Assembly: GCA_002898555.1 (NCBI GenBank) | Contig: BEHR01000013.1 | Location: 1 to 64,000, forward strand | Length of the DNA stretch: 64,000 nucleotides | Reading direction: 5' to 3' | From: a bacterium HR15 | Lineage (GTDB): Bacteria > Armatimonadota > Fimbriimonadia > Fimbriimonadales > GBS-DC | Shown here: in pieces, positions 16,681-32,668 of the stretch | Layout: each line of letters starts with the position of its first letter | How positions within the stretch are numbered: position 1 is the stretch's first letter | Notes under the pieces: generated by a model | Told to the model about the DNA's origin: nothing | The model's input: the letters and a program-made list of their open reading frames with translations, nothing else | Databases searched by the model: none | Made by a program: the position numbers and the translations under genes

Positions 16681-16794
16681 TGCTGGGCGTCCAGTGCTTG
16701 GTAAGGCGCAACCTTTGGAGCGGTTCATCCGTCAAAAAGGAACAAGAGAACAGCTGTCGAAGTGGAAACGCGGAGAAGAGGAGGTTTAAGCACA

Positions 16795-19700
16795 GTGGTC
16801 AAACGATGGTGGCTGATTCTAACGGCACTGATCATTGGCACGGTCGCCTTCGGGCAACAAGATAATGCGAACCAGCGCCCGTGGGAAGAGGTCTATCGCA
16901 ACCGACCGAATCGGCACACGCTGCCGAACCAGCGTCCGCGCACGATCCCACGCCAGAACTATAAAGAGGTTCCTCTTTTCTCATCTTTTGAAGGGAACCT
17001 TCAATGGCAAAAGAGCGGGCTGTTCGACCCACGGCGATTTCATGAGATACGCCGGACACAATCGGGGCAGCGCACACGCGCTCCCCGCTGGGACCGCGAC
17101 CTGACGAACGCACCCACCGATGAGCTGCACCCTGTCTATGCCTCGCGTGCCACCCGCATGTTCTTTGCCAGCAACGCGACCGGCGTGGACACCAGTGGGC
17201 GACTGGCTAACCCCGGCCCTTTTTACCACATCTGGCGCGGTGATCTGGACGATGGCAGCAATCCAGATCTGGGGCAGCTCACAAACTATGTGCGGATTAC
17301 AGGCGACACGCCCGATGAACAGTTCTCTTCCCAGATTCAGCCGAGCGTGAATCAGAACGGGCATATCTTAGCCTATGCCTCCCGCTCCGCCGCTGGCAGC
17401 TATAATATCGTCATTCGCAATCTGACGACCAATCAGCGCGTACTGCTGACCACCGACAACGATGGCGTGACCCAAAATCTGCATCCGACACTCAGCCCCG
17501 GGGGCAATCTGGTGGTCTTTTCATCGAACCGATTGGAGGCAGGTGAAACGCCTGCCGATCGTCGGTTCCGCCTGTACATGGCGCGCACCGATGGGCGACC
17601 CTTTGACGACGGGCGCTTCTTCCGCCGCATCACCCACCCTGATCCGGGGCAAAACGATATCGAACCTTCTTGGTCGCCCGCGGGCGACCAAGTCGCCTTC
17701 GCACGCACCTTCGCCGATGGCGGCAGCTATATCTTTCTTATCAACACCCAAACACTCAATATCGTGCAGTGGACAAACTTCGTAGATAACGGCGGCAACC
17801 GCCCCCAAGATCGCCAGCCAACATGGGTGACAACCGCAGCGGGAGCGACCCTCATTCTCTTTGCCTCCAACCGTAAATCGCTGGACAACTTGGGTCGCCA
17901 CCAGCGACTGGCACCGGCAAACAGCATCGATGTGTTGAATAACATCTTTGATATCTACCGCATGAGCGCACTCATTTCCGAAGAGCTGGGCGCGGTGCCT
18001 GTGTCCCTGACAACAGACACCAGCACGCCCGCCTTAGCACGCCCAAACTACCCAGGCGACCCAGAGACCTTTGCCGGTGCGCAATATCCCACTGCCGCCA
18101 TCATCGAGCGTAACCGAATCGCCTACCATTCCACCCGCCTAAACGAAGCGCAAAATCAGGGTCCGCACGACATTTGGGAAACATTTGCCAGCGACACCAT
18201 CGCCCCCACGATGGAGATCCTGCCGGTGGTCCATCCAAAGGAGATGTTTCCCGGGGATGAGGTCACCATTCGCATTCGCGTGGTCGATTTTCAAAGCGGC
18301 GTGCAGTTCGTGAGGGTCCAGTTCAAGGATCCCGACAGCGCGGAGCAGGATGCTGAGGGGCTGGAACACAAAATCTACCTGCTCAGCTCGGCGGAGGTGG
18401 TGGATAACCAGAACATTGTTATCCCCGTGTTCATCGAAATCGGGCAACAGGCGATTCACCCTGAAACTTACGAATACAAAGACCCTTATGTACTGTCTTT
18501 TCTGGGCTTCAACGGGAGTCTGGACGATACCTTAGCCTTGCGCTATGTGCCTGACGATCCTAACAATCCCGACCCGACCCAATCGGGCTGGTGGGAAATC
18601 ACCTGGCGTACGCCCGATGTGGAAAGCGACTTCTACCTCGATGTGATTGTGCGCGATAATGCGGGTAATGAGTTCATCTACGACAACATTTCGGGCTTCA
18701 CCACCAAACGGTTTGTTGGCGCGAACAAGATCCTGCTGGTATCCGACTACGCAGCGGGGCAGATGTTTGTGCAGAATCGCATCGGATTCATTGGTAGCCC
18801 CGACTCGGCAGGTGGGCGCCCTACATGGCTGCCAGTAGAGAGCTATTGGACGGATAACCCCACTGGAAAGCCCCCTTATGATATAGGGGTTAGTCCACCA
18901 GAGCCTATCATTGGCGATGGCGCGATCCCAAGTCCGACAGTGTTCCTTGCCAACATCCGCTCGGACACGCTGGGCGGGAATACAACCTACGGCAATCTGT
19001 ACGACATCTGGCGCGTGCAGTGCCGCAATCCGATTTCGCCTCAGGTGCTGGCAGGCTATCTGCCGCGCTACGAGCAGGAGCCAACTGACCTACGGGGCGG
19101 CACGCGCTCGAAGCTGCACGCGGAACGCATCGTCATCTGGGCAAGCCCCTACACAGGCGACTTGTGGGCAGGCCCAGGACACCTCCTGGACCCCGAGGTG
19201 CAGACCACGCTGCGCAACTTCTTGGCAGGAGCAGGGCGACTGGTGGTCAGTGGTCAGGATGTCGCTTGGGCGCTGACGCTGGCAGGAGGAACCGCGAACC
19301 AGTTCCTACAACAGGTGCTGCAAGCCCAGTTCGATTTCGATACCGCGGAGGATGTCGTGCTGCCTATTCCTTATGCGCGTCTGCGCCACCAGCTGGATGC
19401 CGATGGTCTTGAAGACAACCCGGACCGCCCCGGCGCACTCAACCCGGATGTGTTCGACCCGAACCCCATCGCATTCAACCCTGCAGGGATACCCATCTGG
19501 TTCATTCTGGATAACGGCGTTAAGAACAATCCCGACGAATTGCAAATTGCCGATCCTGCCACTCTGCTGCCCAATGGGATCATCCGGCGCATTACGCCCC
19601 CCGGGCAGCCTGGCATCAATAGCGACGGCGCGTGGAACCAGATCTGGCTGGACACGGTTTTCAGCACGAACGACAGACGCGCCCCCTATAAATACACCAA

Positions 19701-22299
19701 TCCGGGTACAGCAACGAACAACCGTGAGCGCCAGCGCGCAGGCACTTACTACGAGAACCCCACCAACAAATCCAAGATTGTCTTCTTCTCATTTGGGCTG
19801 GAAGGGGTCGATTCGGGCTACGAGGAGACCAGCGGCGTTATCTGGTGCAACGCGTTTCGCAATAAGGTGTTGCACAACGCCTATGCGTGGATGACGCATA
19901 GCATCCTGCGCGGGCGCGTGTTGGAGTATGACCCTGAAACACGCACTTTCAGCCCGCTGCCGCGTGCCTTCGTGCGCGTCACAGGGCTGCAACCACCCAG
20001 CCTTCAGGGAGTGGAGGTCGGTTATGCCATCACCGACTCGGCAGGCGAATATACGATCTTCGGGCTGGAAGCCGGCATCTATCTCGTCGAAGCGGAACGC
20101 CCCGGCTATCGCGTGCAGCACCCAGAGACGGTCGTGCTGGTGGCGGAAGACACCGCAGTGAATCTGGTCATGCTCAAAATCCCACCCGGGCAGATTAGCG
20201 GGCGCGTCATCGATATTAATAACCAGCCTGTTCGATACGCGCTGGTGCGGGCAACCAATGTGGATGACCCATCCCTTACAGTGGAAACCCTGAGCGATCC
20301 CGATGGGACCTTCCTGCTCCCGCGGGTGCCGGTGGGCAACTGGAATGTGGAGGTGGTCTCGCTGGCATTAGGTGGCTATCGGCTGCCGCCAGTGCGTCCG
20401 CAGCCCGACGGCGTGTTCCGCAATGTCCAGGTGCAAGGGGGTCAGACCACCACCCTGCCGGAAGACTTCGTGCTGGAGCCGTTGCCCGGCACGATACGAG
20501 GACGCGTGACTCGAGCTGATAATGGGCAGCCTATTCAGGGCGCGCGGGTGGTTGCCGTCGCCAATAATGTGGAGCGTGGCTCCGCCCTCACCGACGCCAA
20601 CGGCAACTACAGCTTCCAGGTGCCCGGTGGTGAGTATCAGGTGACCGCCACCGCGCCGGGCTTCGCGCCGAATACGCAGACCGTCACGGTGCCACGCGAG
20701 GGCGAGGTGGAGGTCAACTTCCAGCTGGCGAAGCTCCCGCCCGGGCGCGTGACGGGCAGGGTGGTACGCAAGTTCGGCGGCGCGCCCGAACCCGGTGTAA
20801 CCATCGAGCTGATCTTTGGTGGCAATCCCGTCTACAGCGCGACCACCGGTGCGGACGGAACTTACACCATCGACCCGGTAGAGCCGGGCGATTATGAGGT
20901 GCGCCCAAGCAAAACAGGGTTCACCTTCGAACCACCCACACGCACGATCACCGTGAATCCGAATCAGACGACGACCGTGCCCGACTTCAAGTCGCAGCCG
21001 TTGCGCACCTTCTTCCGTGGGCGCAGCTTGGTGTCGGCACCGTTCGACTACACGCAGGACATTGCCGACCTGCTCGATGTGCCGCCCGACCAGCGCCGCT
21101 TCCCCGACTTCCGCTTCTTCACCTGGGACACAGCGAGCAGCCGCTACATCTTCTATCCCGATGCGCCCGCCAATCGCTTCGCGCTGGGACGCGGCTACTT
21201 CATAGAGACCACCCAGGACCTACCGCTGGCGACTGAGGGCACACCCGCCGATGAGACGCGCAACTTCGAGATTCCACTGCGACGCGGCTGGAACCTGATT
21301 GGTACGCCGTTCCGCTTCGATATCGACTGGGAGCAGACTCAGGTGATCGACCCCGACACGAACACCCCCGTGTCTAATGCGACAGCGGTGGGTAAGCAGA
21401 TTATCGCGAATGCGCTGTGGAGCTATGCCTTCGGCACCTACAACGCTACCCGCCGCATGAAAATCTGGGAAGGCTACTGGGTCTATGCCTATAAGGACAC
21501 CACACTCATCATCTCGCCGTCGGCACGGGCGCGTTCAGCAGCAAGCCGCAGCATCACATCGCCCACCTCATCGGGCTGGATGCTCACACTGCAGGCACAA
21601 TCGGGCGACTTGATGGATCAAGCCTATATCGGGGTTTCACGGGGTGCATCGCCCAACTACGACGCGGAGCATGACCTGCTCAAGCCGCCACCCGTCGGAC
21701 GCGACTATGTCTATATCAGCCTGCCACGCCTCCACTGGGGCGATCAAAGCGGCTACTATGGTGTGGATGTACAAGCGCCCTCTCGCAGCGCGAGCTGGGA
21801 GTTCACCGTGGAAACCACCCAGCCCGGGCGCGAAATCACCCTGCACTGGCCGAATATCCACCAGCTGCCACGCTCGGTGAACCTCGTGCTGGTCGACCTG
21901 CAAACGGGCGCGCGCCGCTATCTGCGCACCACCGGCTCCTACACCTTCCGCAGCCCACAGGGCGGTGTGAGCCGATTCCGAATCGAGATGGCGTCCAGCG
22001 CGGGACTGCTGCGCATCGCGAATGTGCAGGTGACCACTGGGCGCGGCAACCAGCGCACCATTGCCTTCACCCTCACGGGCGACGCGAGCGTCGAGGTGAC
22101 GGTGCTGGCAGGTGGCAAAGTAGTGCGCCAGCTGATGAGCGGCACGGGGCGCAGCGCAGGCATGCAACAGGTGAGCTGGGATGGGCGCGACCAACAGGGC
22201 ATTGCGCTGCCACCCGGCGCCTACACCATCGAAATTCGGGCTGTCAGCGAGGATGGACAGGTGGCGCGCGCCGCCACGACCATCATCCTGACCCGATAG
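16795..22299 (+). CDS. Giant secreted protein: PD40 propeller, CarboxypepD-reg repeats, shared C-terminal module
   Basis: 1834 aa from GTG 16795, preceded by AGAGGAGGT; an in-frame GTG at 16762 lacks one. Signal peptide 1-25. A TolB-like PD40 propeller occupies about 105-380 (HPTLSPGGNLVVFSSNR, PSWSPAGDQVAFAR). Ig-like segments follow, then a region near 800-840 with GRLVVSGQDVAWAL that resembles amidotransferase-like folds of secreted proteins. Four carboxypeptidase-regulatory-like beta-sandwiches come next (about 1040-1395; GTIRGRVTRADNGQPIQGAR). The last about 430 residues, with RRGWNLIGTPF and a final FlgD-type Ig domain ending VARAATTIILTR, are shared with two downstream genes. Function unknown; probably exported to the cell surface. 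First gene of the cluster. Confidence 0.75.
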   Translation: MVKRWWLILTALIIGTVAFGQQDNANQRPWEEVYRNRPNRHTLPNQRPRTIPRQNYKEVPLFSSFEGNLQWQKSGLFDPRRFHEIRRTQSGQRTRAPRWDRDLTNAPTDELHPVYASRATRMFFASNATGVDTSGRLANPGPFYHIWRGDLDDGSNPDLGQLTNYVRITGDTPDEQFSSQIQPSVNQNGHILAYASRSAAGSYNIVIRNLTTNQRVLLTTDNDGVTQNLHPTLSPGGNLVVFSSNRLEAGETPADRRFRLYMARTDGRPFDDGRFFRRITHPDPGQNDIEPSWSPAGDQVAFARTFADGGSYIFLINTQTLNIVQWTNFVDNGGNRPQDRQPTWVTTAAGATLILFASNRKSLDNLGRHQRLAPANSIDVLNNIFDIYRMSALISEELGAVPVSLTTDTSTPALARPNYPGDPETFAGAQYPTAAIIERNRIAYHSTRLNEAQNQGPHDIWETFASDTIAPTMEILPVVHPKEMFPGDEVTIRIRVVDFQSGVQFVRVQFKDPDSAEQDAEGLEHKIYLLSSAEVVDNQNIVIPVFIEIGQQAIHPETYEYKDPYVLSFLGFNGSLDDTLALRYVPDDPNNPDPTQSGWWEITWRTPDVESDFYLDVIVRDNAGNEFIYDNISGFTTKRFVGANKILLVSDYAAGQMFVQNRIGFIGSPDSAGGRPTWLPVESYWTDNPTGKPPYDIGVSPPEPIIGDGAIPSPTVFLANIRSDTLGGNTTYGNLYDIWRVQCRNPISPQVLAGYLPRYEQEPTDLRGGTRSKLHAERIVIWASPYTGDLWAGPGHLLDPEVQTTLRNFLAGAGRLVVSGQDVAWALTLAGGTANQFLQQVLQAQFDFDTAEDVVLPIPYARLRHQLDADGLEDNPDRPGALNPDVFDPNPIAFNPAGIPIWFILDNGVKNNPDELQIADPATLLPNGIIRRITPPGQPGINSDGAWNQIWLDTVFSTNDRRAPYKYTNPGTATNNRERQRAGTYYENPTNKSKIVFFSFGLEGVDSGYEETSGVIWCNAFRNKVLHNAYAWMTHSILRGRVLEYDPETRTFSPLPRAFVRVTGLQPPSLQGVEVGYAITDSAGEYTIFGLEAGIYLVEAERPGYRVQHPETVVLVAEDTAVNLVMLKIPPGQISGRVIDINNQPVRYALVRATNVDDPSLTVETLSDPDGTFLLPRVPVGNWNVEVVSLALGGYRLPPVRPQPDGVFRNVQVQGGQTTTLPEDFVLEPLPGTIRGRVTRADNGQPIQGARVVAVANNVERGSALTDANGNYSFQVPGGEYQVTATAPGFAPNTQTVTVPREGEVEVNFQLAKLPPGRVTGRVVRKFGGAPEPGVTIELIFGGNPVYSATTGADGTYTIDPVEPGDYEVRPSKTGFTFEPPTRTITVNPNQTTTVPDFKSQPLRTFFRGRSLVSAPFDYTQDIADLLDVPPDQRRFPDFRFFTWDTASSRYIFYPDAPANRFALGRGYFIETTQDLPLATEGTPADETRNFEIPLRRGWNLIGTPFRFDIDWEQTQVIDPDTNTPVSNATAVGKQIIANALWSYAFGTYNATRRMKIWEGYWVYAYKDTTLIISPSARARSAASRSITSPTSSGWMLTLQAQSGDLMDQAYIGVSRGASPNYDAEHDLLKPPPVGRDYVYISLPRLHWGDQSGYYGVDVQAPSRSASWEFTVETTQPGREITLHWPNIHQLPRSVNLVLVDLQTGARRYLRTTGSYTFRSPQGGVSRFRIEMASSAGLLRIANVQVTTGRGNQRTIAFTLTGDASVEVTVLAGGKVVRQLMSGTGRSAGMQQVSWDGRDQQGIALPPGAYTIEIRAVSEDGQVARAATTIILTR

Positions 22300-22350
22300 G
22301 AAACACGCATCAACCGAAGAAAATAGACACTGATAGGAGGAGCGACCAGA

Positions 22351-24153
22351 GTGAGAACACGGAAGCGACGAATCTGGGCAACACGCTGGAGCATGGTAGG
22401 CGTCGCCAGCATGCTCCTTGTCTGGCTGCTACAGCCGCTGAGCATGTTGACGGCACAAACGCAGGTTGTGCAACTGCCGCGCATCGCCGTGATCGATTTT
22501 CAGAACAAAAGCGGCTACGGTGGGGGTAGCATCGCGCGTGCCGCCACCGATGCTGTGGCGGGCGAGTTCCAGAAAACAGGACGCTACGAGGTGCTGGCAC
22601 GCGGCGAAATTGAGCAACAACTCAAAGACCTCGATCTATCGCCACCGCTGAGCAAGACAGGCTACCTGCGTCTGGGACGCGCGCTGCAACTCGAATCGAT
22701 TGTCGCCGGCGATGTGGAGGCAATCACCTTTGTCGGATCGCCGAAGCAAGCCCAAGTGACACTCACCGTGAAGGTCATCGACATCGCTTCGGGCGAGCCT
22801 GTGAATGGCGCGGTAGTGACCGGCTTCAGCAACCCACGCCCGGGTTATAGCGGTGATGACGATACCCTGGTGCTGGAAGCCATCCGTAACGCCGCGTTCG
22901 AAGCCGTACGCACCATCCAAAACTATACCATTCCCGAAGCGACCGTGCTGACTACCCGCGCGGGCAAGGAGGTGCTGCTCAACCGCGGCATTCGCGGTGG
23001 GCTGAAGCCCGGCATGGAGATGATTGTCATTCGGCGCGGCGAGGAAGTGGGGCGTATCCGTATCACGGAGGTGTCCGACAGCGACGCAGTGGGGGTTATC
23101 CTCGAGTCGCTGAAGGGCATTCAATCCGAGGATAAAGCGCGTGCCGTGTTCGAGGTGCCCTCCGTGAAGGTCAAAGCGGGCAAAGTGGTTAAAGAGGAGC
23201 CTCGTACCCGCGCCGAACGCAACAAAGCACTGCGCGCGCTCGGTCCTCTGCTTATTCTGGGGCTAATCGCCTTCGGTGTAGCACGCGCTTCGTCAGGGGG
23301 CAACACGCCCGTACAGGATGTGATCGCTGAAGCAAGCACCGATGGCAACTTCGACCCCATCATCCGCATCTCATGGAAAACCACCCTGTTTGCGAAAAGC
23401 AATCGGGACCAAATTCAGTGGCAAATCTATCGCTCCGACTTTATTGATGTCGACGGCAACGGCAATCTAATCCCCATCGGCGTGGTGCCAGGCAATCAAC
23501 ACTCTTTCATCGACACGACGGTTCCCCGCGTGGTAAACTACGCCAGTCTGCCGCGCGAAGGGAGTGAGGACCTGTCGCTGGAAGAAGTAGACACTGCTCC
23601 TGGCATTGCGCCTGGGCGTTCCTATACCTACCAGCTCGCGCTTGTCTACCGTGAAGTGCGTGATATTGCCGGTGGTGGAGGTGGCGGTGGTGGCGGTGGG
23701 CAACAACAGATTGTCTTCTTGCTGTCAGACCGCGTACGCTCCGGGCAAGCAACCGCAATTGCGCCCGTGCAACTGCTGACCCCTGTTCAGCGCAGTGAGG
23801 ATGTGGACCCGAAAGAGGTCATCTTCAGCTGGCTGGCGGCCGAAGGGGCGAACGCCTATCGGGTCGAGGTTTCTGCCGATCCCACCTTCCGCGACCGCAA
23901 CCGCACTTTTGTCTCCCCTGAGATTCTTTCCACCGCAGCAGGTGGTAGCCCCGTCAGTACGGAGCGCCTGAACATCGAAACGGGGCTGCTTGCCCGATTG
24001 GGGCTGGTCGGGCAGCGCGTCACGCTCTACTGGCGCGTGGGCGCACGCAACCTGAACGATAACCCAGGACCCGTTCCTGGACCGGGCGGATTACGCTATG
24101 TGTGGAGCCGACCCTTTGAGTTCACTACACAAGAGCTGCCGCCACCACCCTAA
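22351..24153 (+). CDS. CsgG-like secreted protein with FN3-like C-terminal half
   Basis: 600 aa, GTG start at 22351 with TAGGAGGAG upstream. Signal peptide to about residue 36. Residues 45-200 match the CsgG/TolB-N fold: IAVIDFQNKSGYGG, a strand-helix pattern, LGRALQLESIVAGDVEAI, VTLTVKVIDIASGEPVNGA. Residues 205-260 (LLNRGIRGGLKPGMEMIVIR, GRIRITEVSDSDAVG) resemble the C-terminal domain of FlgT/CsgG-associated proteins. A hydrophobic stretch at about 300 (LGPLLILGLIAFGVA) follows, then fibronectin-III-like segments with a poly-Gly run. CsgG forms a secretion pore for curli; whether this one forms a pore is not shown. Confidence 0.72.
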   Translation: MRTRKRRIWATRWSMVGVASMLLVWLLQPLSMLTAQTQVVQLPRIAVIDFQNKSGYGGGSIARAATDAVAGEFQKTGRYEVLARGEIEQQLKDLDLSPPLSKTGYLRLGRALQLESIVAGDVEAITFVGSPKQAQVTLTVKVIDIASGEPVNGAVVTGFSNPRPGYSGDDDTLVLEAIRNAAFEAVRTIQNYTIPEATVLTTRAGKEVLLNRGIRGGLKPGMEMIVIRRGEEVGRIRITEVSDSDAVGVILESLKGIQSEDKARAVFEVPSVKVKAGKVVKEEPRTRAERNKALRALGPLLILGLIAFGVARASSGGNTPVQDVIAEASTDGNFDPIIRISWKTTLFAKSNRDQIQWQIYRSDFIDVDGNGNLIPIGVVPGNQHSFIDTTVPRVVNYASLPREGSEDLSLEEVDTAPGIAPGRSYTYQLALVYREVRDIAGGGGGGGGGGQQQIVFLLSDRVRSGQATAIAPVQLLTPVQRSEDVDPKEVIFSWLAAEGANAYRVEVSADPTFRDRNRTFVSPEILSTAAGGSPVSTERLNIETGLLARLGLVGQRVTLYWRVGARNLNDNPGPVPGPGGLRYVWSRPFEFTTQELPPPP

Positions 24154-24231
24154 CGGCGGCACGATTCGAATGCCATTTCGGATTTTCTGCCGAAACGGCA
24201 ACCCGATTCAAGCGTCTGAACAATTCTGGAG

Positions 24232-24256
24232 TAGGGGCGCAGGCGCCGCGCCCCAT
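24232..24256 (+). repeat. Small hairpin repeat GTAGGGGCGC
   Basis: AGTAGGGGCGC-AGGCGCC-GCGCCCC, with 7-bp arms, lies in the 129-nt gap before the subtilase gene. It is a relative of the GTAGGGGCAGAC hairpins. Confidence 0.5.
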
Positions 24257-24282
24257 AACCGAACTAATCGGGAGGGAAGCTG

Positions 24283-27213
24283 ATGAGATCGATGTGGCGA
24301 TTGTGGCTTGGCTGGCTGCTGATCATCGGATGTGCAGTGGCACAAACACTCACACCCGACGATGTGGTGCCGGGTGAGATGCTGCTCACTATGCGGGCAG
24401 GTACATCTATCGAAAAAGCGCGTGCCTTAGCCAACAGTGTGGGAGCCGATCTGCGCCCTATCCGCGTGCCCGATACCTATGTGCTGCGCCTGCGCGACCA
24501 ACAAGGGGCAACCCCTGTGCAACTGCTCGAACGGGTGCAGCGTGCCGTCGATCAACTCAAAACGGACGCGGATGTGCTGTATATCCGTCCACATTGGGTA
24601 CGCCGACCGTTTGATGTGCCTAATGACCCACGTTATGGCGAGCAATGGGCTTTACCCATGATCCGCGCTCCTGAAGCATGGGATCAAGAGAAGGGACAGC
24701 AGGGCATTCGGATCGCCATCATTGATACCAATTTCGATCGCAACCATCCCGATCTAACGGATCGGTATGATCCGCTTTCGCGGAACTTTGTCGCCGATCC
24801 GCCTGATGGAAACCTTAATCCAGATCCAGGCGCACCTTTCTCGCATGGCGCAAGCGTGATGGGGGTTGCTGTCGCCAGCACGAATAATGGCATCGGAATT
24901 GCAGGACTTTGCTGGGAGGGGGTCACCGCCGTCGCTTTGAAGACCACAGGGCAATCTTTCTTCCTCCCTCTCGATAATATTCTTGAAGCGATGCAATACA
25001 TCATTGATAATGCCCAAAGTGGCGGTAATCAGGTCATTCATGTTGTGAACATGAGCTTCGGGAGCTTCTTTCCCGATCCCCAAGAGAACGATCTGATCCA
25101 GCAAATGTTTCAGCGTGGTGTAATCCCTGTTGCGGCTGCGGGAAATGAAAGCACATCCTTGCCTGTGTATCCTGGTGATTATGACAATGTGATTCGCGTT
25201 GCGTCTGTGGGTCCATCGGGTCTAAAAGCATCTTATTCGAACTTTGAGCGCATCGATCTAGCAGCGCCAGGGGGTGATCAGCAGACACGATTGCAGGATG
25301 GTATCCTTACCACGGATCTTGGCGGTCGTTATGAATATGTGCAAGGTACTTCCGTCGCCTCACCGTATGTTGCCGCGGCCCTGGCACTGGTGCTTTCCGC
25401 GGGGGCGCCCGTGCATGGTCCCAACAATCCTATTCCGCCGGCTCAAGAGGCGTTGCAGGAAACCGCTAACTCGATGGGGCGCACTGTGCCTGATCCCGAG
25501 CTGGGATGGGGCATCATTGATGTGGGGGCAGCCTTGCGAGGGTTTGGCGGCGCGAGCGTGACCATCGTGAACCCAGCCAATAACACCTTTACCGACACTA
25601 AGCGCGTGCGTATCCATGTGATTGTGCGGCGCAGCACCATCCCGCAGATCCGACTCTTCTTTGCAGGGGATGAGATTCCGCGCGAGCAGTGGCAGCCATT
25701 TGCAGGCGTCTCATCGGATGGCAAAACCATCACCATCGCGGGCTACGAACTGGTGCTCCCCGGGGAAGGGCGTTTCGATTTCACGGTGACGGCGGTCGGA
25801 CAGGATGGCAACCCGGTAAGTGCGACCTCGACCATTATTGTGCGTCCGCGCCTGCAGCCTGCGGGGCTAACGATGTTCGCCACGCCCTACCGTGTAGATC
25901 GCGCTCCCGAAGAGCTTTTCGGTGCGGACGCGATCCTGGCGCGCTATCTGCCTTCGCAGGGACGCTATGCCCGCTATTCAGGCAGCGGCGTGCGCGAACC
26001 CGAAGCCAGCTTCAACCCGCCCGGCGTGAATGTGCGTCCAGAGGGAAGCAACACGCCCACACCACCGCGTGGACTGGGCTACTTCCTGCGCACGAACACC
26101 CCCGCCTTCATCCTGGGCGACGAGTTCATCGATCCCAACACTGCCTATATGATCCCGCTGGAGCCCGGCTGGAACATGATTGGCAACCCGTTCCCCTATA
26201 ATGTGCCGTGGAGCGCGTGCGAGATCGAAATAGAAGGGCAAGCCGGCGTGCGACAGCGGTTGAGTATTCTGGAAGCTGCGGACAAGGAGTACATCCGCGC
26301 GCAGATCTATCGCTATATCATGCTGACAGGGGAATACACTTGGCGCACCGCGCCGCTGGGCGAGCTGTTGCCATGGCAAGCACACTGGATTCGCGTGCTG
26401 AAACCCTGCACGCTGATTGTGCCGCCTTTGGGTACAACGCGCAGCCAGAGTGAAGCGTCCGACAACCCGCGTGTTGCCCCGCCCAACGGCGATGGCTGGC
26501 TGATACGCCTCATTGCTCGCAGTGGCGACCGTGAAGATGCTAACAACTTCATCGGCACCAGCACGCGGGCACGCGACGAGCTGGACGCCCAGGATGTGGA
26601 GAAGCCTCCCAGTTTCCAATCCTATGTGCAGCTGCGCCTCCTGGAGCCGCGCAGTCGCGCTGCACTCGCCCAGGACCTGCGCCGTGCCGGTAAACGCCCC
26701 ATGCGGTGGGAGCTGGAGGTCACGACCGATAAGCCGAATGCGGAGGTCACGCTCCGCTGGCAGCAGGAGGTACCGCTGCCGCCAGGCATGCGCTTGACAC
26801 TCATCGATAATCTCACAGGGCAGCGTGTCTCCATGAATCGCCAAAGCGCATATACCTTCCGCACCGATGAAAACAGCCGGCGACGCTTTGTGATCGAGGC
26901 GCAGCCCGCTCGCCTGAGTCAACTGCGCATCACCAACTTGAATGTGGTCAGCACGCGCGGCAATCAAATCACTATTCAGTATGCACTGAACACCTCTGCC
27001 AGTGTGCAAGTGGTGATTCAGGACGCAACGGGCAAACCTATCGCGCGACTAACAGGCGGCACGCGCGCGGCAGGGCTGAACACCGTCACATGGACAGGGC
27101 GCACCGATACGGGCATCGCGGTGCCACCCGGTACTTATCAGGTTCAAATCATTGCGACGGGCGAGGAGGGCGAGATCGCACGCGCCGTGCGCCCGCTCGT
27201 CATCACCCGCTAA
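24283..27213 (+). CDS. Secreted subtilisin-family protease with shared C-terminal module
   Basis: 976 aa; ATG at 24283 preceded by GGGAGGGAAG. Signal peptide 1-21. A propeptide-like I9 segment (about 28-105) precedes the S8 catalytic domain: Asp148 in IAIIDTNFDRNHPD, His188 in FSHGASVMGVAVAST, Asn288 in AAAGNES and Ser357 in GTSVASPYVAAALAL. All catalytic residues are present. An Ig-like segment (about 430-525) and the about 430-residue module common to its neighbours follow: PGWNMIGNPFPYNVPW, NNFIGTSTRAR, then an FlgD-type Ig domain ending IARAVRPLVITR. It may process the neighbouring secreted proteins; this is inferred from position only. Confidence 0.88.
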   Translation: MRSMWRLWLGWLLIIGCAVAQTLTPDDVVPGEMLLTMRAGTSIEKARALANSVGADLRPIRVPDTYVLRLRDQQGATPVQLLERVQRAVDQLKTDADVLYIRPHWVRRPFDVPNDPRYGEQWALPMIRAPEAWDQEKGQQGIRIAIIDTNFDRNHPDLTDRYDPLSRNFVADPPDGNLNPDPGAPFSHGASVMGVAVASTNNGIGIAGLCWEGVTAVALKTTGQSFFLPLDNILEAMQYIIDNAQSGGNQVIHVVNMSFGSFFPDPQENDLIQQMFQRGVIPVAAAGNESTSLPVYPGDYDNVIRVASVGPSGLKASYSNFERIDLAAPGGDQQTRLQDGILTTDLGGRYEYVQGTSVASPYVAAALALVLSAGAPVHGPNNPIPPAQEALQETANSMGRTVPDPELGWGIIDVGAALRGFGGASVTIVNPANNTFTDTKRVRIHVIVRRSTIPQIRLFFAGDEIPREQWQPFAGVSSDGKTITIAGYELVLPGEGRFDFTVTAVGQDGNPVSATSTIIVRPRLQPAGLTMFATPYRVDRAPEELFGADAILARYLPSQGRYARYSGSGVREPEASFNPPGVNVRPEGSNTPTPPRGLGYFLRTNTPAFILGDEFIDPNTAYMIPLEPGWNMIGNPFPYNVPWSACEIEIEGQAGVRQRLSILEAADKEYIRAQIYRYIMLTGEYTWRTAPLGELLPWQAHWIRVLKPCTLIVPPLGTTRSQSEASDNPRVAPPNGDGWLIRLIARSGDREDANNFIGTSTRARDELDAQDVEKPPSFQSYVQLRLLEPRSRAALAQDLRRAGKRPMRWELEVTTDKPNAEVTLRWQQEVPLPPGMRLTLIDNLTGQRVSMNRQSAYTFRTDENSRRRFVIEAQPARLSQLRITNLNVVSTRGNQITIQYALNTSASVQVVIQDATGKPIARLTGGTRAAGLNTVTWTGRTDTGIAVPPGTYQVQIIATGEEGEIARAVRPLVITR

Positions 27214-27226
27214 CGGAGGAGGGAAC

Positions 27227-29944
27227 ATGAAGCGATTCAGAGTGATTGGATGGATGGTCGGTATTCTCACAGGCGTGATGAGCTTGACGCCTCTGCAGGG
27301 GCAGCGTGTGTATGACCCTTTCAGTCCCCCCTGCTGCTGTCCGCAACAACAGGGCGGTTGTGTTGAGAACCCAGTGAGCGATGATTACCTTCATATAAGG
27401 GTATCGAATGGGGTGCTGGGAGCTGTTCTTGGGCTGAGCGGCACCATCCAGTGGCTCACTGGCTGTTTCCCGATGACCAATACCCCATGCATCACGCTTC
27501 AGGCGGAAGGCAGCATCCAGATTGGCACGACAGGAGGCACGAGCCTGCTGCGCGATGGCAACATCGCGATGACCTCCGGCTATCCATGGGGAGTCTATCC
27601 GGGTGGGATCTATATCAGCATGCGTGAGACGCGTGGCAATCAGACCCGCACCTTTGTGTGGGGGCGTTCGCAGGGCGCACCGAATGTAACTTTTGACAAG
27701 GCATGGCCAGGCGCCAGCGGCGTCTATATCCGGCGCCAGTGGTATGTGGAAGGCTGGCAAACCGATATGCGGATCGAGCTGATCCAGACGGTGGCGCGCA
27801 TCGAGTTGAAGGTAAGAAACACGGGCACTGAAACCGCATCGCTGGCGCTGCGACTCGCCTCCGATGTGGAGGTGGGGGTAGAGGAGGGCGTCGATCCCAA
27901 CGGTGCATCACTCCCTCCCTATGTCTATGTGCAGGGGCAGCGCCCTATCCGCGTGGACACGGACCTCAGCGGGGTTCAAGTGCCGCCTGCTGTCGAATTC
28001 TATCTCTCGCGCGGTGACCTGAACGGGGCGTCACGCTACATCCTGCGCCCTACCACCGGCTTCGAAGACGCAACCCCCATCGACCGCCTCGTATTTGGCG
28101 AGTGGTTCTTTATTCAAGCAACAACCAACTGGGATCCAGTGCTGTTTCCTGACAAATTTATCGGGGATGTCGCCATTAATCTTTTTACCAACCCGCGCAA
28201 CTTCGCGCCGGGACAGGAGCGCACCTTCGTCTTCTATGTCACCATGACCCCTGTAAACATCGATGTGCAACCGCCGATCGCTGTGGGCGTTGAAACGCTG
28301 CCCGTGATCGAGCCAGACCAGCAGGACTTGTCGCAGCTGGCGGACGGTGGCGTTTTTGAGGTGATCGCCTCCGTTACCAACATGTTCCAAGTGGTGGGCA
28401 AAGAAATTGATTTGAACAATGTGGCTGTCGATTTGTCCCTACCTTCCGGTATCGCTTTAGCATCGGGTGAGACACGCACGAAGACGATTGCCCGTATCCA
28501 ACCTGAATCCACCAGTTCCGTGCGATGGCGTGTGGTCGCGGATCCGAGGGCGGTTGGGTTTGCTACGATTCGCGTCTCGGTAAACGCACCACCCGCACCG
28601 CCAAAGACTGTCAGTCGCACGATTCTCATCTCAGCGACCGCCAGCCGCGAGCTGAAGAAGGGATTCCAGATAATCTCTATCCCCTTCACCGCCACGGCGC
28701 CGCTGGTCGATGTGCTGGGACTGCCGGAAGGCACCTATCTGGCAAAACGCTGGAACCCTGACCGAGAAGTGTACGAAACGGTGGACACGCTGCGGCCTGG
28801 TATGGGCTTCTGGCTCTACCTGCCGAACGAAGGCACCAACATCACAATGAGCAATGTACGCTTCCCGCAATCGGTGTTCACTGCCAGTGTGCCCATTCGC
28901 CTGAATCGTGGCTGGAACCAAATCGGCAACCCCTATCCCTATCCACTGGTGCTGGGGCAGGTGGTGATAGTGAGTGCGAACGACCCACGCAGCAGCCTGA
29001 GCTTCTTTGAAGCAGCGCAGCGTGGCGTGATTCGCGGCGTGATCTACTACTGGGATGAGTTCTCTGGAGAATATAAATTCACTTCCGATCCGAACATGCC
29101 CCTCATCCCGCATCGCGGCTACTGGCTTAAGTGCAACGACGATATCGAGCTGGTGTTTCCGCCGGTGTTTATGCCGGGCACTGGGTTTGGCGGTGTGATT
29201 GGTCGTTCCGCAACGGAGCCGCCCAATCGCCCCAACGAGTGGCGATTGCAGCTGATTGCACGCACCGCCCGCGGCGAGGACACTCAGAACTTCATTGGCA
29301 TCACCAGCGGTCGCACCGCCGGTGAGGTGGAGGAACCGCCCACCCCGTTGGCGGAGGTACCGGTGCGCCTAACCATTCTCAAGGCGGGTGTGCCACTGAT
29401 GCAGGATGTGCGCCCGGCGTCGGCCACGCGCCACACTTTCGAACTGCTGGTGGAGGCGCCCGCGGGTGAGGAGGTCAGCCTGCGCGTGCCCAATGTGCGC
29501 AGCGTGCCCTCTGGCTATCGCCTGCGCTTGACCGATGAAAGCACCGGACGCACCGTTGACCTGCGCTACACTCCCGAATATCGCTTCACCGCCAGCGGGC
29601 GCAATCGGTTCACCCTGACGGTGGAGCGTGGCGCGCGCGGTGGCGCATTAATTACCAGCATCACCGTCGGTTCCGCTGGGCGCGGCGCCAATAGCGTCTC
29701 CATCTCCTATGTGCTGGCGCAGGATGCCCAGACCGAGGTGACGATCCTGGGTGCGGATGGGCGCGTGATTGCCAGTTTGCAGCGTGGGCGTGCCGCCACA
29801 CGCGGAGTAAACACTGTGGTGTGGAACCTGCGGGATAATGCAGGGCGCGTGGTACCCCCAGGCACTTATCGTGTGCAGGTCGAAGCGCGCGATTCAGAAG
29901 GGCAGGTAGCACGCGCGGTGCGACCGCTTGTCATTACGCGCTAA
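27227..29944 (+). CDS. Large secreted protein of unknown family with shared C-terminal module
   Basis: 905 aa from the ATG at 27227, with GGAGGAGGG upstream; the longer frame from 27152 overlaps the protease gene and has no signal. Signal peptide to about residue 26, then a Cys cluster (PPCCCPQQQGGC). Residues 45-370 are a beta-rich domain not recognised. Residues about 375-475 look like an Ig/CARDB-type sandwich (KEIDLNNVAVDLSLPSG). The C-terminal about 430 residues (RGWNQIGNPYPYPL, IPHRGYWLKC, TQNFIGITSGR, final VARAVRPLVITR) match the protease and the giant protein. It starts 13 nt after the protease stop, so the two are co-translated. Confidence 0.7.
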   Translation: MKRFRVIGWMVGILTGVMSLTPLQGQRVYDPFSPPCCCPQQQGGCVENPVSDDYLHIRVSNGVLGAVLGLSGTIQWLTGCFPMTNTPCITLQAEGSIQIGTTGGTSLLRDGNIAMTSGYPWGVYPGGIYISMRETRGNQTRTFVWGRSQGAPNVTFDKAWPGASGVYIRRQWYVEGWQTDMRIELIQTVARIELKVRNTGTETASLALRLASDVEVGVEEGVDPNGASLPPYVYVQGQRPIRVDTDLSGVQVPPAVEFYLSRGDLNGASRYILRPTTGFEDATPIDRLVFGEWFFIQATTNWDPVLFPDKFIGDVAINLFTNPRNFAPGQERTFVFYVTMTPVNIDVQPPIAVGVETLPVIEPDQQDLSQLADGGVFEVIASVTNMFQVVGKEIDLNNVAVDLSLPSGIALASGETRTKTIARIQPESTSSVRWRVVADPRAVGFATIRVSVNAPPAPPKTVSRTILISATASRELKKGFQIISIPFTATAPLVDVLGLPEGTYLAKRWNPDREVYETVDTLRPGMGFWLYLPNEGTNITMSNVRFPQSVFTASVPIRLNRGWNQIGNPYPYPLVLGQVVIVSANDPRSSLSFFEAAQRGVIRGVIYYWDEFSGEYKFTSDPNMPLIPHRGYWLKCNDDIELVFPPVFMPGTGFGGVIGRSATEPPNRPNEWRLQLIARTARGEDTQNFIGITSGRTAGEVEEPPTPLAEVPVRLTILKAGVPLMQDVRPASATRHTFELLVEAPAGEEVSLRVPNVRSVPSGYRLRLTDESTGRTVDLRYTPEYRFTASGRNRFTLTVERGARGGALITSITVGSAGRGANSVSISYVLAQDAQTEVTILGADGRVIASLQRGRAATRGVNTVVWNLRDNAGRVVPPGTYRVQVEARDSEGQVARAVRPLVITR

Positions 29945-29950
29945 CGCTCA

Positions 29951-29978
29951 GGGGGCAGCGACATAAAAAGCTGCCCCC
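29951..29978 (+). terminator. Strong intercistronic hairpin without T-run
   Basis: GGGGGCAGC (29951-29959), a 10-nt loop, then GCTGCCCCC (29970-29978), located 7 nt after the stop of the upstream gene and 22 nt before the next start. There is no U-tract, so it is more likely a 3'-end stabiliser or partial attenuator than a full terminator. Confidence 0.6.
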
Positions 29979-29999
29979 AATCCAAAGGAGGCTCACAGG

Positions 30000-30692
30000 G
30001 TGAAAAAGGGAATGCTTATCGGGGCTTTGCTGAGCGGCTTGCTGCTCGTTGCTGCCGGTCAGAACACACGCGAGCTGGTCATCTTCCCCTTCGGCATGGG
30101 CAGCAATGTGCAAGCGCCAGAGGATTTCAACCTGAACGCCGAGTTAATGAACGCGCTCTATGCCCAGTTGAAGGAGATACCAGGGCTGTATGTGATGCGC
30201 TTCAAGGAGACGAACCCTGCCGTGCGTCGCGCACTGGACGAGAATCGCCTGCGTCGCGACCGTTTGAATCCACCCTTCAATGTCAAGGAAGCAGACGGCA
30301 CATGGCGCTCCGCTCGCATCGGGCAAATCCTCGGCGTGAACTATGTGCTGGCAGGTAGTATTGAGGAGTTCCGCTATGACCCGACAACAAAGCGGGCGAC
30401 CCTTACCGTCAGCTTAGATCTGGTGCAGGTGTCGGATGGTACGGTGGTGGTCTCGCTGGCGGAGAGCGGGCAGGGGCGTCTTGGCGAATCGGGCGACCCG
30501 AACACCGCTTATGTAGCAGCCATTGCAGATGTCGTGCAGAAGGTGGGCACTGCCCTTCGCGAACGGCTTACACCGCCTCCCCCTGCTGAGCCGACTCAGA
30601 CACGCAGATCGCCCTCGCGCCGCCAGGAGGGAGCTGCGTTTTCTCTCTTTGGATTGCTTATTCTGGTTGGCATCCGATTGGTCGGATTCTGA
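30000..30692 (+). CDS. Small CsgG/TolB-N-like secreted protein
   Basis: 230 aa, GTG start at 30000 with AAAGGAGG upstream. Signal peptide 1-20. The fold signature is ELVIFPFGMGSN, a helix with NALYAQLKEIPGLYV, then IGQILGVNYVLAGSIEEFRY and TLTVSLDLVQVSDGTVVVSL. The 'lGv-yvl-GsI' and 'd-G-vv' elements are those of CsgG-like/TolB N-terminal proteins. The C-terminus is Pro/Arg-rich and then hydrophobic (FSLFGLLILVGIRLVGF), a possible membrane anchor. Its stop overlaps the start of the next gene (TGATG), so the two are translationally coupled. It is the second CsgG-like gene of the cluster. Confidence 0.68.
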   Translation: MKKGMLIGALLSGLLLVAAGQNTRELVIFPFGMGSNVQAPEDFNLNAELMNALYAQLKEIPGLYVMRFKETNPAVRRALDENRLRRDRLNPPFNVKEADGTWRSARIGQILGVNYVLAGSIEEFRYDPTTKRATLTVSLDLVQVSDGTVVVSLAESGQGRLGESGDPNTAYVAAIADVVQKVGTALRERLTPPPPAEPTQTRRSPSRRQEGAAFSLFGLLILVGIRLVGF

Positions 30693-32668
30693 TGCGGGAA
30701 CAGGTGCTGCTCACAACGCGCCCCTCATTACTCGCCCATCCTTATAGGCGATGGGTGAGTGTTGCGGTTCTGTCCGCTCTCTGCATGCTGGCTTATGGCG
30801 GCTCAGGCACGATTCGGCTGACCGCCTACCCCGCAGCGGTGGTTGCTGACGGCGCGTCTCAGATTACCTTGACGGCGGAGGTGCGCACGGCGCAGGGTAA
30901 GCCTGCACCGGATGGCACCCAAGTCGCCTTCAGCACCACATTGGGTGCTTTGCGCGAGGCGGTCGTCCCAACAGAAGGAGGTTCTGCACGCGCGACCCTG
31001 ATTGCCAGCCAGTTGCCGGGCGTTGCCACCGTCACCGCCACCGTGCTGGGGCAGGGGCTGGTGGGGCAAACGCAGGTGCTGATGGTGCGCGACGCCCATG
31101 AACTGCGCACGGCAGCCGACTATGTGCAGGTGTCCGCCCGCAACTATCTCGCCTACGCGAACGAACAGCGTATTATCGCCGCCAGCGGCACGCAGAAAGG
31201 CGCACTGGTGCAATTCGGCTTCGTTCGAATCGAAGCGGATGACCTTCAACTGCTGGTGGATGAGCTGCTGGTCAAGGCACGCCATGCCACCCTGCGCTAC
31301 GGACCCGTGGAGCAGACCTTTGATGAACTGGTGTATCGCCTTCGCACTGGCGAGGGCTATGGCGTCGCGGAACGCGAGGGACGCTGGCAAGTGATGCGCG
31401 TTCAGGGCGCTCAAGCCACGCCCGTGCAGGAGCCGCTCCCACCCAAACTGTTTCAGTTCGCTGACATCTCACAGTCGGAGATGGTCATCAAGGCGGAGCA
31501 GATCTGGTTCTATCCGGGCGAGCGTCTGCAGTTTCATCGTGCCGATTTTTATGTGGGTGCAGTGCGCGTGATGAGCCTGCCCCTCTATTCGCACAGCCTC
31601 TGGGGTGGGGGTGTGGGCACAGACACCCTGATCGGGGTGCAAAGCGGGCAGATTTTTCTCGATGTGCCCTACTACTACGCGCTCAAGCCCGGTCAAGTGG
31701 GGGCGTTGCGCTTGCGCACCGCGCAGCGCGGCGGACGCGGCATCAGCACCGCGCGGGGACTGTTTCTTGATCTGGAACACGAGTACCGCTTCGGGCTGGG
31801 CAAGGGCAACCTCACCCTTTCCAGTCTGGCACGCAGCGATTGGAGCGCGAGCTGGCGCCATTATCAGCCTCTGAATAATACGACTTATCTCCATCTCTGG
31901 CTCGATTCGCCCGCACACAAGGGATTATTCGCCTCCGCGCAGCTAAGCCATCAGGGGCGGGGCTACTCCACTGGGCTGACCCTTGCAGGCAGCACTTTCT
32001 GGGAAGGCGCAAGCGCACGCACCCTGCGCAGCGACCTCTACATCGAAAGCACACCACGCAAAGTGGCAGGCTGGCCGCTGCGCCAGAGTTTTTCGCTGAA
32101 CCTCAGCACCGCACGCACCGCCCTCAGCGGCGGCTCTATCGTGCGGCGCGAGGGCATAGGGCTGCGCGCCCGCTGGACGCTCATTCCGCTCGACTTGGAT
32201 AGCCGCACCAGCCTCACAGGTGGCATCAGTGTCGGACGATTCGTCGGCAATCTGTCCAATACTGGTTGGGAGTTAATCGGCTCGCTCGGAATCTCCCATG
32301 CATTGGGGGGGCAGGGCGCGCTCACCCTGACCTATGACTATGCGCAGGATCCGCTCGGCGTGAACTTGTTGGGGCGACATCGCCTATCAGGCAGCCTTAA
32401 CTGGTCGACCGGCGATCGCCTCTACGCCACCGCCTATTTCAGCCATGCCTTGGACCGCGAGGCAACCAGCCTCATCGGTGACCTCTCATGGCGGCTGAGC
32501 GGGCTTTGGCGTGTGGGCACTGGCATCACCTGGCAGCGGTTTGGCGGCTCTATCGGGTGCGACCAAACCTATACGATTGCTTACCGACTGGGCTTTCGTG
32601 AACTCGCGCTTACATGGTCAACTGCGAGCCGCCGCTGGAGCTTCGACATCCTGACCGTCTTTTATTGA
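30692..32668 (+). CDS. Outer-membrane protein: N-terminal Ig-like (Big_1) domain fused to LptD/OstA-like barrel
   Basis: 658 aa, ATG at 30692 overlapping the previous stop. Basic N-terminus with a signal-like helix to about residue 36. Residues 38-130 are an invasin/Big_1-type Ig domain (YPAAVVADGASQITLTAEVR, AFSTTLGALREAV). Residues about 135-290 have OstA-like strands. VGAVRVMSLPLYSHSL and VPYYYALKPGQ resemble LptD landmarks. The rest is alternating beta-strands ending in ...SFDILTVFY, an aromatic C-terminus typical of BAM-inserted barrels. An Ig domain on an LptD-like barrel is unusual. It may be a dedicated outer-membrane port or anchor for this cluster; the function is not shown. Confidence 0.65.
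   Translation: MREQVLLTTRPSLLAHPYRRWVSVAVLSALCMLAYGGSGTIRLTAYPAAVVADGASQITLTAEVRTAQGKPAPDGTQVAFSTTLGALREAVVPTEGGSARATLIASQLPGVATVTATVLGQGLVGQTQVLMVRDAHELRTAADYVQVSARNYLAYANEQRIIAASGTQKGALVQFGFVRIEADDLQLLVDELLVKARHATLRYGPVEQTFDELVYRLRTGEGYGVAEREGRWQVMRVQGAQATPVQEPLPPKLFQFADISQSEMVIKAEQIWFYPGERLQFHRADFYVGAVRVMSLPLYSHSLWGGGVGTDTLIGVQSGQIFLDVPYYYALKPGQVGALRLRTAQRGGRGISTARGLFLDLEHEYRFGLGKGNLTLSSLARSDWSASWRHYQPLNNTTYLHLWLDSPAHKGLFASAQLSHQGRGYSTGLTLAGSTFWEGASARTLRSDLYIESTPRKVAGWPLRQSFSLNLSTARTALSGGSIVRREGIGLRARWTLIPLDLDSRTSLTGGISVGRFVGNLSNTGWELIGSLGISHALGGQGALTLTYDYAQDPLGVNLLGRHRLSGSLNWSTGDRLYATAYFSHALDREATSLIGDLSWRLSGLWRVGTGITWQRFGGSIGCDQTYTIAYRLGFRELALTWSTASRRWSFDILTVFY

Follow-up and report, generated by a model that had tools for sequence, protein, structure and literature searches.

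A C-terminal tail shared by secreted proteins of Armatimonadota, a possible outer-membrane sorting unit akin to but apart from type IX signal domains

Why do three apparently unrelated secreted proteins, encoded in one operon, end in the same module? The question is raised by a window of 64,000 nucleotides from the bacterium HR15 (Armatimonadota; contig BEHR01000013.1), in which a giant PD40 protein, a subtilase, and a protein with a cysteine cluster (Cys protein) had been noticed, in a preliminary description made from the letters alone, to share a C-terminal module. We propose, with a probability of roughly 0.4, that this tail sorts or anchors proteins in a pathway by which Armatimonadota export them across the outer membrane or display them on the surface, a pathway that resembles the type IX secretion system (T9SS) but is not T9SS. 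The proposal is based on the place, conservation, and distribution of the tail, the kinship of its last domain to T9SS signals, the co-distribution of a barrel-like protein, and gene linkage.

The shared tail and its architecture

The three proteins carry the same tail of about 430–450 residues at the C-terminus. The tails can be aligned over their full length (the last 431–452 residues), and pairwise BLASTP comparisons, with the database size fixed at 5e6, gave E-values of 5e-54, 2e-29, and 3e-51. The tails still matched one another when the FlgD-type domain was removed (6e-28, 2e-10, and 3e-27), and the similarity is therefore not confined to a generic immunoglobulin-like (Ig) fold, a doubt that the preliminary description had itself raised. 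Among 400 comparisons with shuffled tails, the maximum score was 25.8 bits, as against 117–185 bits for the real ones. The N-terminal parts of the three carriers had been called unrelated, and BLASTP gave zero matches between them; all the motifs quoted earlier as common to the three proteins were recovered in frame and in the same order. The observation is confirmed and is stronger than originally stated.

The tail consists, in order, of GW domain 1 (GW1), GW domain 2 (GW2), an IG beta-sandwich, and an FlgD-type Ig domain. GW2 holds the 'GW-IG-Pf' motif and the 'W--yW' segment. A degenerate second GW copy (FRGRSLVSAPF, GLTMFATPY, and KKGFQIISIPF in the PD40 protein, the subtilase, and the Cys protein, respectively) stands ahead of this motif, indicating that the unit is GW1-GW2-IG-FlgD; the module, put at about 430 residues before, measures 431, 452, and 433 residues in the three, and this additional domain had escaped notice. 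From 68 sequences, the subtilase tail was modelled with AlphaFold2 at a mean predicted local distance difference test score (pLDDT) of 92.5, and GW1-GW2-IG modelled without the FlgD domain reached 92.7. A Foldseek search with the GW1-GW2-IG model found no match at E ≤ 0.001, with a best Z score of 5.5 at a second look, and it may still be a known fold. The Pfam FlgD Ig-like family PF13860 (gathering score 27) was matched by the window tails with 41.2, 52.9, and 37.5 bits and by 67 of the 68 tails. The N-termini of all three carriers are hydrophobic, as judged by eye.

Place, conservation, and distribution

The placement of the tail was surveyed in 143 tail-bearing reading frames of the fetched loci, 141 of them closed. 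All closed frames but one (140/141) stop no more than four residues past the tail, the sole exception being an interrupted gene. Twenty more carriers from other genomes, whose N-terminal parts include LVIVD, WD40, and other subtilases, are likewise terminated by the tail. The C-terminal place claimed at the outset is borne out, and no internal position appeared. Of 126 distinct full tails, 122 have arginine as the final residue, and the consensus end reads G-x-x-A-R-x-V-x-P-hhh-T-R. The last two strands have the highest mean information, 2.19 bits per column compared with 1.38–1.85 in the other parts compared.

The host genome (3.04 Mb in 72 contigs) encodes six tail proteins. The three described at first are among them, and the others are a WD40 protein (contig C15), a protein of about 1046 residues (contig C18), and a tetratricopeptide repeat (TPR) protein without GW domains (contig C36). 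The last strand is of the ARA type in all six, and T-R closes the chain. The TPR protein adjoins a PAAR-motif protein and a GH108 lysozyme/Peptidase_M91 protein (L010:5864-11408), a neighborhood that resembles contractile-injection cargo.

The tail was found in 190 of 201 Armatimonadota genomes, the absences falling mainly in one family (f21) and in two reduced genomes of 1.5 Mb; the wider search of contigs used the PD40 alignment, and occurrence outside the phylum was sampled through a few genomes. The N-terminal parts of the carriers comprise PD40 propellers, subtilases, WD40, TPR, LVIVD, and inactive metallopeptidases. In carriers with a clear start, either the N-terminus looks by eye like that of a secreted protein or the domains are of an extracellular type, and no cytoplasmic protein, the possibility that had been held against a sorting role, appeared among the carriers found. 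Two genomes of family f8 (G005 and G107) each have 16–21 matches to the tail profile; most of these are GW1-GW2 pairs followed at once by the stop, apparently a shorter C-terminal unit that has expanded.

Outside the phylum, UBP13-like genomes (L096–L098) encode a PD40/PF13620 homolog of the giant window protein that ends without a tail. They also encode a subtilase whose chain, some 50 residues after a GW-GW-IG unit, comes to its end without an FlgD domain. The tail is therefore made up of separable parts. These two proteins bear on another explanation, by which GW1-GW2-IG-FlgD is a passive modular surface domain, a stalk or a glycan or S-layer binder copied among secreted proteins, that takes no part in transport across the outer membrane. 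We consider this somewhat unlikely. The UBP13-like subtilase fits it, as do the GW-GW and GW-GW-IG units that lack the FlgD end and are then C-terminal themselves, and binding modules often occupy chain ends. The near-invariant tryptophans and tyrosines of the tail would suit a binding surface, and Vpr, a serine peptidase of Bacillus, ends in an FlgD-type domain too. The near-fixed terminal arginine is nevertheless left unexplained, and so are two observations on the barrel-like protein described below, namely the loss of the FlgD domain in lineages lacking the barrel and the pairing of barrel and tail genes.

Relationship to T9SS signal domains

Compared with solved structures, the tail profile matched FlgD at 1e-10 and, less strongly, the PorU C-terminus (0.0012). 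The NCBIfam PorU model matched 52 of the 68 tails (best 1.6e-8), and TIGR04183, the T9SS type A C-terminal domain (CTD), matched 13 (best 4.4e-6). Ten of 61 genomes had matches above the TIGR04183 cut-off, with tail proteins at the top. Against this cut-off of 23 bits, the subtilase tail of the window scored 14.6–15.6 bits, and the other two window tails gave no match. In the AlphaFold2 model, the last domain is predicted to be a seven-stranded Ig-like beta-sandwich. The best structural match of this modelled domain was the fibril form of Vpr (Z 14.4, rmsd 2.1, 97 aligned residues), and the second was the PorU C-terminus (residues 1054–1157; Z 12.0, rmsd 2.3, 95 aligned). GH2 enzymes and others, below Vpr and PorU, matched with Z scores of 10–12, which shows that the fold by itself is unspecific.

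The preliminary description had proposed a search for porU and sov homologs. The SprA/Sov translocon was above its cut-off in none of 151 genomes, with only partial matches of about 95 residues, and PorV in none of 101, with no match in the host genome. PorV-like matches below the threshold were found in 39 of 101 genomes, and Peptidase_C25 was above its cut-off in 20 of 101; no C25 peptidase/PorU was found in the host genome. Straightforward membership in T9SS was rejected on the results for SprA, PorV, and the host C25. The view that the tail is analogous to but different from type IX CTDs needs adjustment accordingly: the T9SS core proteins do stay under the cut-offs, but the last domain is related to the PorU/TIGR04183 CTD. 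The wording 'a kindred signal fold in the same place with different machinery' would come nearer.

A barrel-like candidate partner

The sub-threshold SprA matches lead to a protein of 900–1200 residues, which reads as a putative outer-membrane barrel and in which a stretch of about 95 residues matches SprA positions ~590–690 (E about 1e-10). These matches were rejected as true SprA because they are so short and because the barrel profile retrieved no SprA from the PDB. A genuine but very divergent T9SS, whose components escape current models, is highly improbable in our estimation: the related C-terminal domain, this short stretch, the PorV-like matches, and the C25 peptidases would agree with it, but SprA and PorV are never above cut-off, the host genome has neither a PorV-like protein nor C25, and the barrel is less than about half as long as SprA.

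We compared the distribution of barrel and tail in the same 201 genomes, calling a tail strong at E < 1e-45 and a barrel strong at E < 1e-40 with its own profile. A strong barrel match was present in 138 of 145 strong-tail genomes, in 2 of 45 weak-tail genomes, and in none of 11 tail-less genomes (138/145 versus 2/56 others; Fisher p = 1.5e-38, with kinship ignored). Four of the seven strong-tail genomes without a strong barrel are assemblies no more than 73% complete. In the barrel-less families that were read (f5, f8, f9, f18, f19, f20, f24, f36, and part of f37), the homologs end after IG or GW2, and hence the FlgD domain is precisely what is missing; the CsgG-like and Big_1 genes stay strong there. 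Two barrel-less genomes (G123 and G004) keep the FlgD domain, and the hhh-T-R end is absent. The host copy of the barrel lies outside the window, on contig C31. A second barrel-like paralog of 1171 residues with a SprA-like stretch of about 37 residues is encoded on contig C5 (L053:5631-9143) and may be behind the weak barrel matches in tail-poor families. Two products of the window operon were rejected as tail-specific partners: the Big_1/barrel protein also occurs in the tail-less family f21, and the CsgG-like protein also occurs in tail-less genomes.

Linkage was assessed in 26 regions around a barrel gene, drawn from 25 families at about one barrel per family; 24 of the regions had enough contig. 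Fourteen of the 24 have, immediately downstream of the barrel and on its strand, a gene that bears the tail or GW domains (families f2, f12, f13, f16, f22, f23, f25, f28, f29, f31, f38, f39, f40, and f42; f2 is represented by G177); the chance of this is 7e-13 at a generous 5% per region. The count is 10 of 20 when four linked regions glimpsed earlier in match lists (G177, G024, G033, and G135) are left out. The two open frames are at most four bases apart in f12, f28, and f39, and linkage had been found earlier by eye in f4, f11, f14, and f15 too. Apart from two f11 cases, the linked protein is a homolog of the host C18 protein (1e-35 to 1e-85); the tail is full in 8 of the 14 linked genes, and the FlgD end is absent in 6. 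The C18 protein (L009:6682-9819) and its homologs have a gluzincin-like N-terminal part in which HExxH is replaced (HAFHD..DAWEEGF) and W-E-G is kept, and thus look like inactive metallopeptidases.

Proposed sorting route

We envisage that the carriers pass the inner membrane by an N-terminal signal peptide. The part recognized afterwards would be the terminal FlgD-type Ig domain, chiefly its last two strands with the end R-x-V-x-P-hhh-T-R-COOH, as its conservation and the parallel with T9SS suggest; the T9SS export signal lies within the last 22 residues, the last two strands (PMC4804311). This end would be handed to an outer-membrane apparatus, for which the barrel-like protein is the best candidate, possibly as translocon or anchor. 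The conserved tail protein resembling an inactive metallopeptidase, often encoded next to the barrel, may be the helper. GW1-GW2-IG would form a surface-exposed spacer (stalk) or a binding unit, and its occurrence without the FlgD end makes the last domain alone a good signal candidate. The tail would thus act as a T9SS type A signal domain does, with other machinery. The role in sorting, secretion, or anchoring assigned to the tail from the start is supported in part, by its C-terminal place, the secretion-type carriers, and the best conservation at the end; the role itself is what we infer from them.

Several observations weigh against this proposal. Bacillus belongs to bacteria without an outer membrane, and its Vpr has the FlgD-type end all the same. 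The likeness of the barrel to SprA is limited to the 95-residue stretch and far under the cut-off, and the barrel profile gave no SprA match in the PDB. The thresholds for strong matches were picked after the data had been seen. A strong barrel match is missing from three genomes with full tails (G120, G166, and G093), and in G177 the barrel is present and a full tail is not. The barrel-adjacent gene lacks the FlgD end in f13, f28, f29, f31, f39, and G177, and in the host genome the barrel and its partner are on separate contigs. Kinship was addressed with independent pairs on a tree of one gene, that for the CsgG-like protein, from 72 genomes, on which 7 changes of the tail and 11 of the barrel were counted. 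Of the six pairs obtained, four were concordant, none was opposite, and two showed no difference (p = 0.125), so that the link between tail and barrel rests on few independent events.

It is possible, though we put it forward with some doubt, that Armatimonadota have an outer-membrane sorting system of their own apart from T9SS, in which an FlgD-type signal is read by the barrel with the SprA-like stretch and an inactive metallopeptidase serves as dedicated partner, and that only an ancestral signal fold is common to the two.

The operon and its neighbors

Across the phylum the gene order is rpsA - coaE - PD40 protein - CsgG-like - subtilase - Cys protein - LpoB-like - Big_1/barrel, with the tail on the PD40 protein, the subtilase, and the Cys protein (Table 1). 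The CsgG-like gene is present in 186 of 201 Armatimonadota genomes and the Big_1/barrel gene in 191. The mechanically assigned TTG start of the Cys protein at 27152 was replaced by the ATG at 27227, the most likely start, with GGAGGAGG just upstream. In one other genome (G044, L050:13872-16545), the Cys-protein gene is broken into two reading frames of 621 and 274 residues by a frameshift or an assembly error.

Table 1. Features of the window operon and of the three tails
Feature	Position	Strand	Basis
PD40/carboxypeptidase-regulatory-like secreted protein, tail carrier, 1845 residues	16762..22299	+	Open reading frame; PF13620 (four stretches), PD40, FlgD_ig (Pfam)
PD40 protein, whole tail, 431 residues	21004..22296	+	
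PD40 protein tail, GW domain 1 (degenerate)	21004..21264	+	Alignment; boundary transferred from AlphaFold2 model of subtilase tail
PD40 protein tail, GW domain 2 (RRGWNLIGTPF)	21265..21561	+	Motif, alignment
PD40 protein tail, IG beta-sandwich	21562..22002	+	Alignment, AlphaFold2 model of subtilase tail
PD40 protein tail, FlgD-type Ig domain, end ARAATTIILTR	22003..22296	+	PF13860 E=1.7e-10
CsgG-like protein, tail-less operon neighbor, 600 residues	22351..24153	+	PF03783 20.3 bits, cut-off 20.8
Subtilase (S8), tail carrier, 976 residues	24283..27213	+	PF00082 E=1.1e-37
Subtilase, whole tail, 452 residues	25855..27210	+	
Subtilase tail, GW domain 1	25855..26145	+	Alignment, AlphaFold2 model
Subtilase tail, GW domain 2 (PGWNMIGNPF)	26146..26469	+	Alignment, AlphaFold2 model
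Subtilase tail, IG beta-sandwich	26482..26910	+	Alignment, AlphaFold2 model
Subtilase tail, FlgD-type Ig domain, end ARAVRPLVITR	26911..27210	+	PF13860 E=3.8e-14; PorU C-terminus Z 12.0
Cys-cluster secreted protein, tail carrier, 905 residues	27227..29944	+	ATG start, GGAGGAGG upstream
Cys protein, whole tail, 433 residues	28643..29941	+	
Cys protein tail, GW domain 1	28643..28888	+	Alignment
Cys protein tail, GW domain 2 (RGWNQIGNPYPY)	28889..29233	+	Alignment
Cys protein tail, IG beta-sandwich	29234..29647	+	Alignment
Cys protein tail, FlgD-type Ig domain, end ARAVRPLVITR	29648..29941	+	PF13860 E=2.3e-9
Small LpoB/CsgG-like protein, operon neighbor, 230 residues	30000..30692	+	LpoB/CsgG match sub-threshold; synteny
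Big_1/Invasin_D3 domain and likely outer-membrane beta-barrel (by reading), operon neighbor, 658 residues	30692..32668	+	PF09134 4e-13

A study by Eloe-Fadrosh et al. in 2016 (PMC4737851) describes a conserved cluster of six genes in Armatimonadetes, among them those for a subtilase, a CsgG-like transporter, and a secreted protein in which PF13620 is repeated four times, and proposes that it is a functional amyloid cluster. The window operon is apparently this cluster, as matched on the gene content described there. On an explanation along these lines, the operon would export and assemble an extracellular fiber, the tail being a unit for co-polymerization or docking and the subtilase a maturation protease. 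The matching gene content is in line with it, and so is the fact that the last domain is closest in fold to the fibril form of Vpr; we regard it as unlikely, because many tail proteins are encoded elsewhere, the CsgG domain is borderline, just under the Pfam cut-off, and the CsgG-like gene is kept in tail-less genomes, which means that tail and cluster are separable.

Comparison with known systems

A 2016 survey reported T9SS as restricted to Bacteroidetes and anticipated that clades poor in detected systems hold further, unknown ones (PMC4793230). We found no account of how Armatimonadota put large proteins on their surface, nor an earlier description of the tail in open-licence papers that treat Armatimonadota together with T9SS or sorting domains. 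The phylum-wide tail and its candidate outer-membrane partner supply named genes for this question, and TIGR04183 matches in Armatimonadota should not be taken as proof of T9SS.

The cluster of PMC4737851 is like the window operon (16762–32668) in its six genes, including the protein with four PF13620 stretches, the CsgG-like protein, and the subtilase; its authors propose a functional amyloid, and the shared tail is not mentioned in the text consulted. The FlgD Ig-like family (PF13860), with FlgD and Bacillus Vpr, includes the last domain of the tail, but the tail carriers are not flagellar hook proteins, and their domain has a fixed place, the C-terminus, where its final arginine is conserved. 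Sov/SprA (TIGR04189) shares the stretch of about 95 residues with the candidate barrel, whereas it is about 2300 residues long against 900–1200, and the barrel scores far below its cut-off and does not match solved SprA. The tail also resembles the T9SS type A CTD (TIGR04183 and PF18962; PorU, PorZ, and RgpB), which is also a terminal Ig-like beta-sandwich on carriers with unrelated N-termini, with a basic last residue and a hydrophobic last strand, and the PorU C-terminus matches the tail in sequence and fold. The tail differs in that its last domain is preceded by GW1-GW2-IG and in that the window members are under the family cut-off. The distribution of CTD proteins tracks the T9SS core genes (PMC4804311, PMC10202324). 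The host genome is without SprA, PorV, and C25/PorU above cut-off, and the tail is accompanied by the smaller barrel instead. The tail is best filed under C-terminal outer-membrane sorting, as a new form rather than as T9SS.

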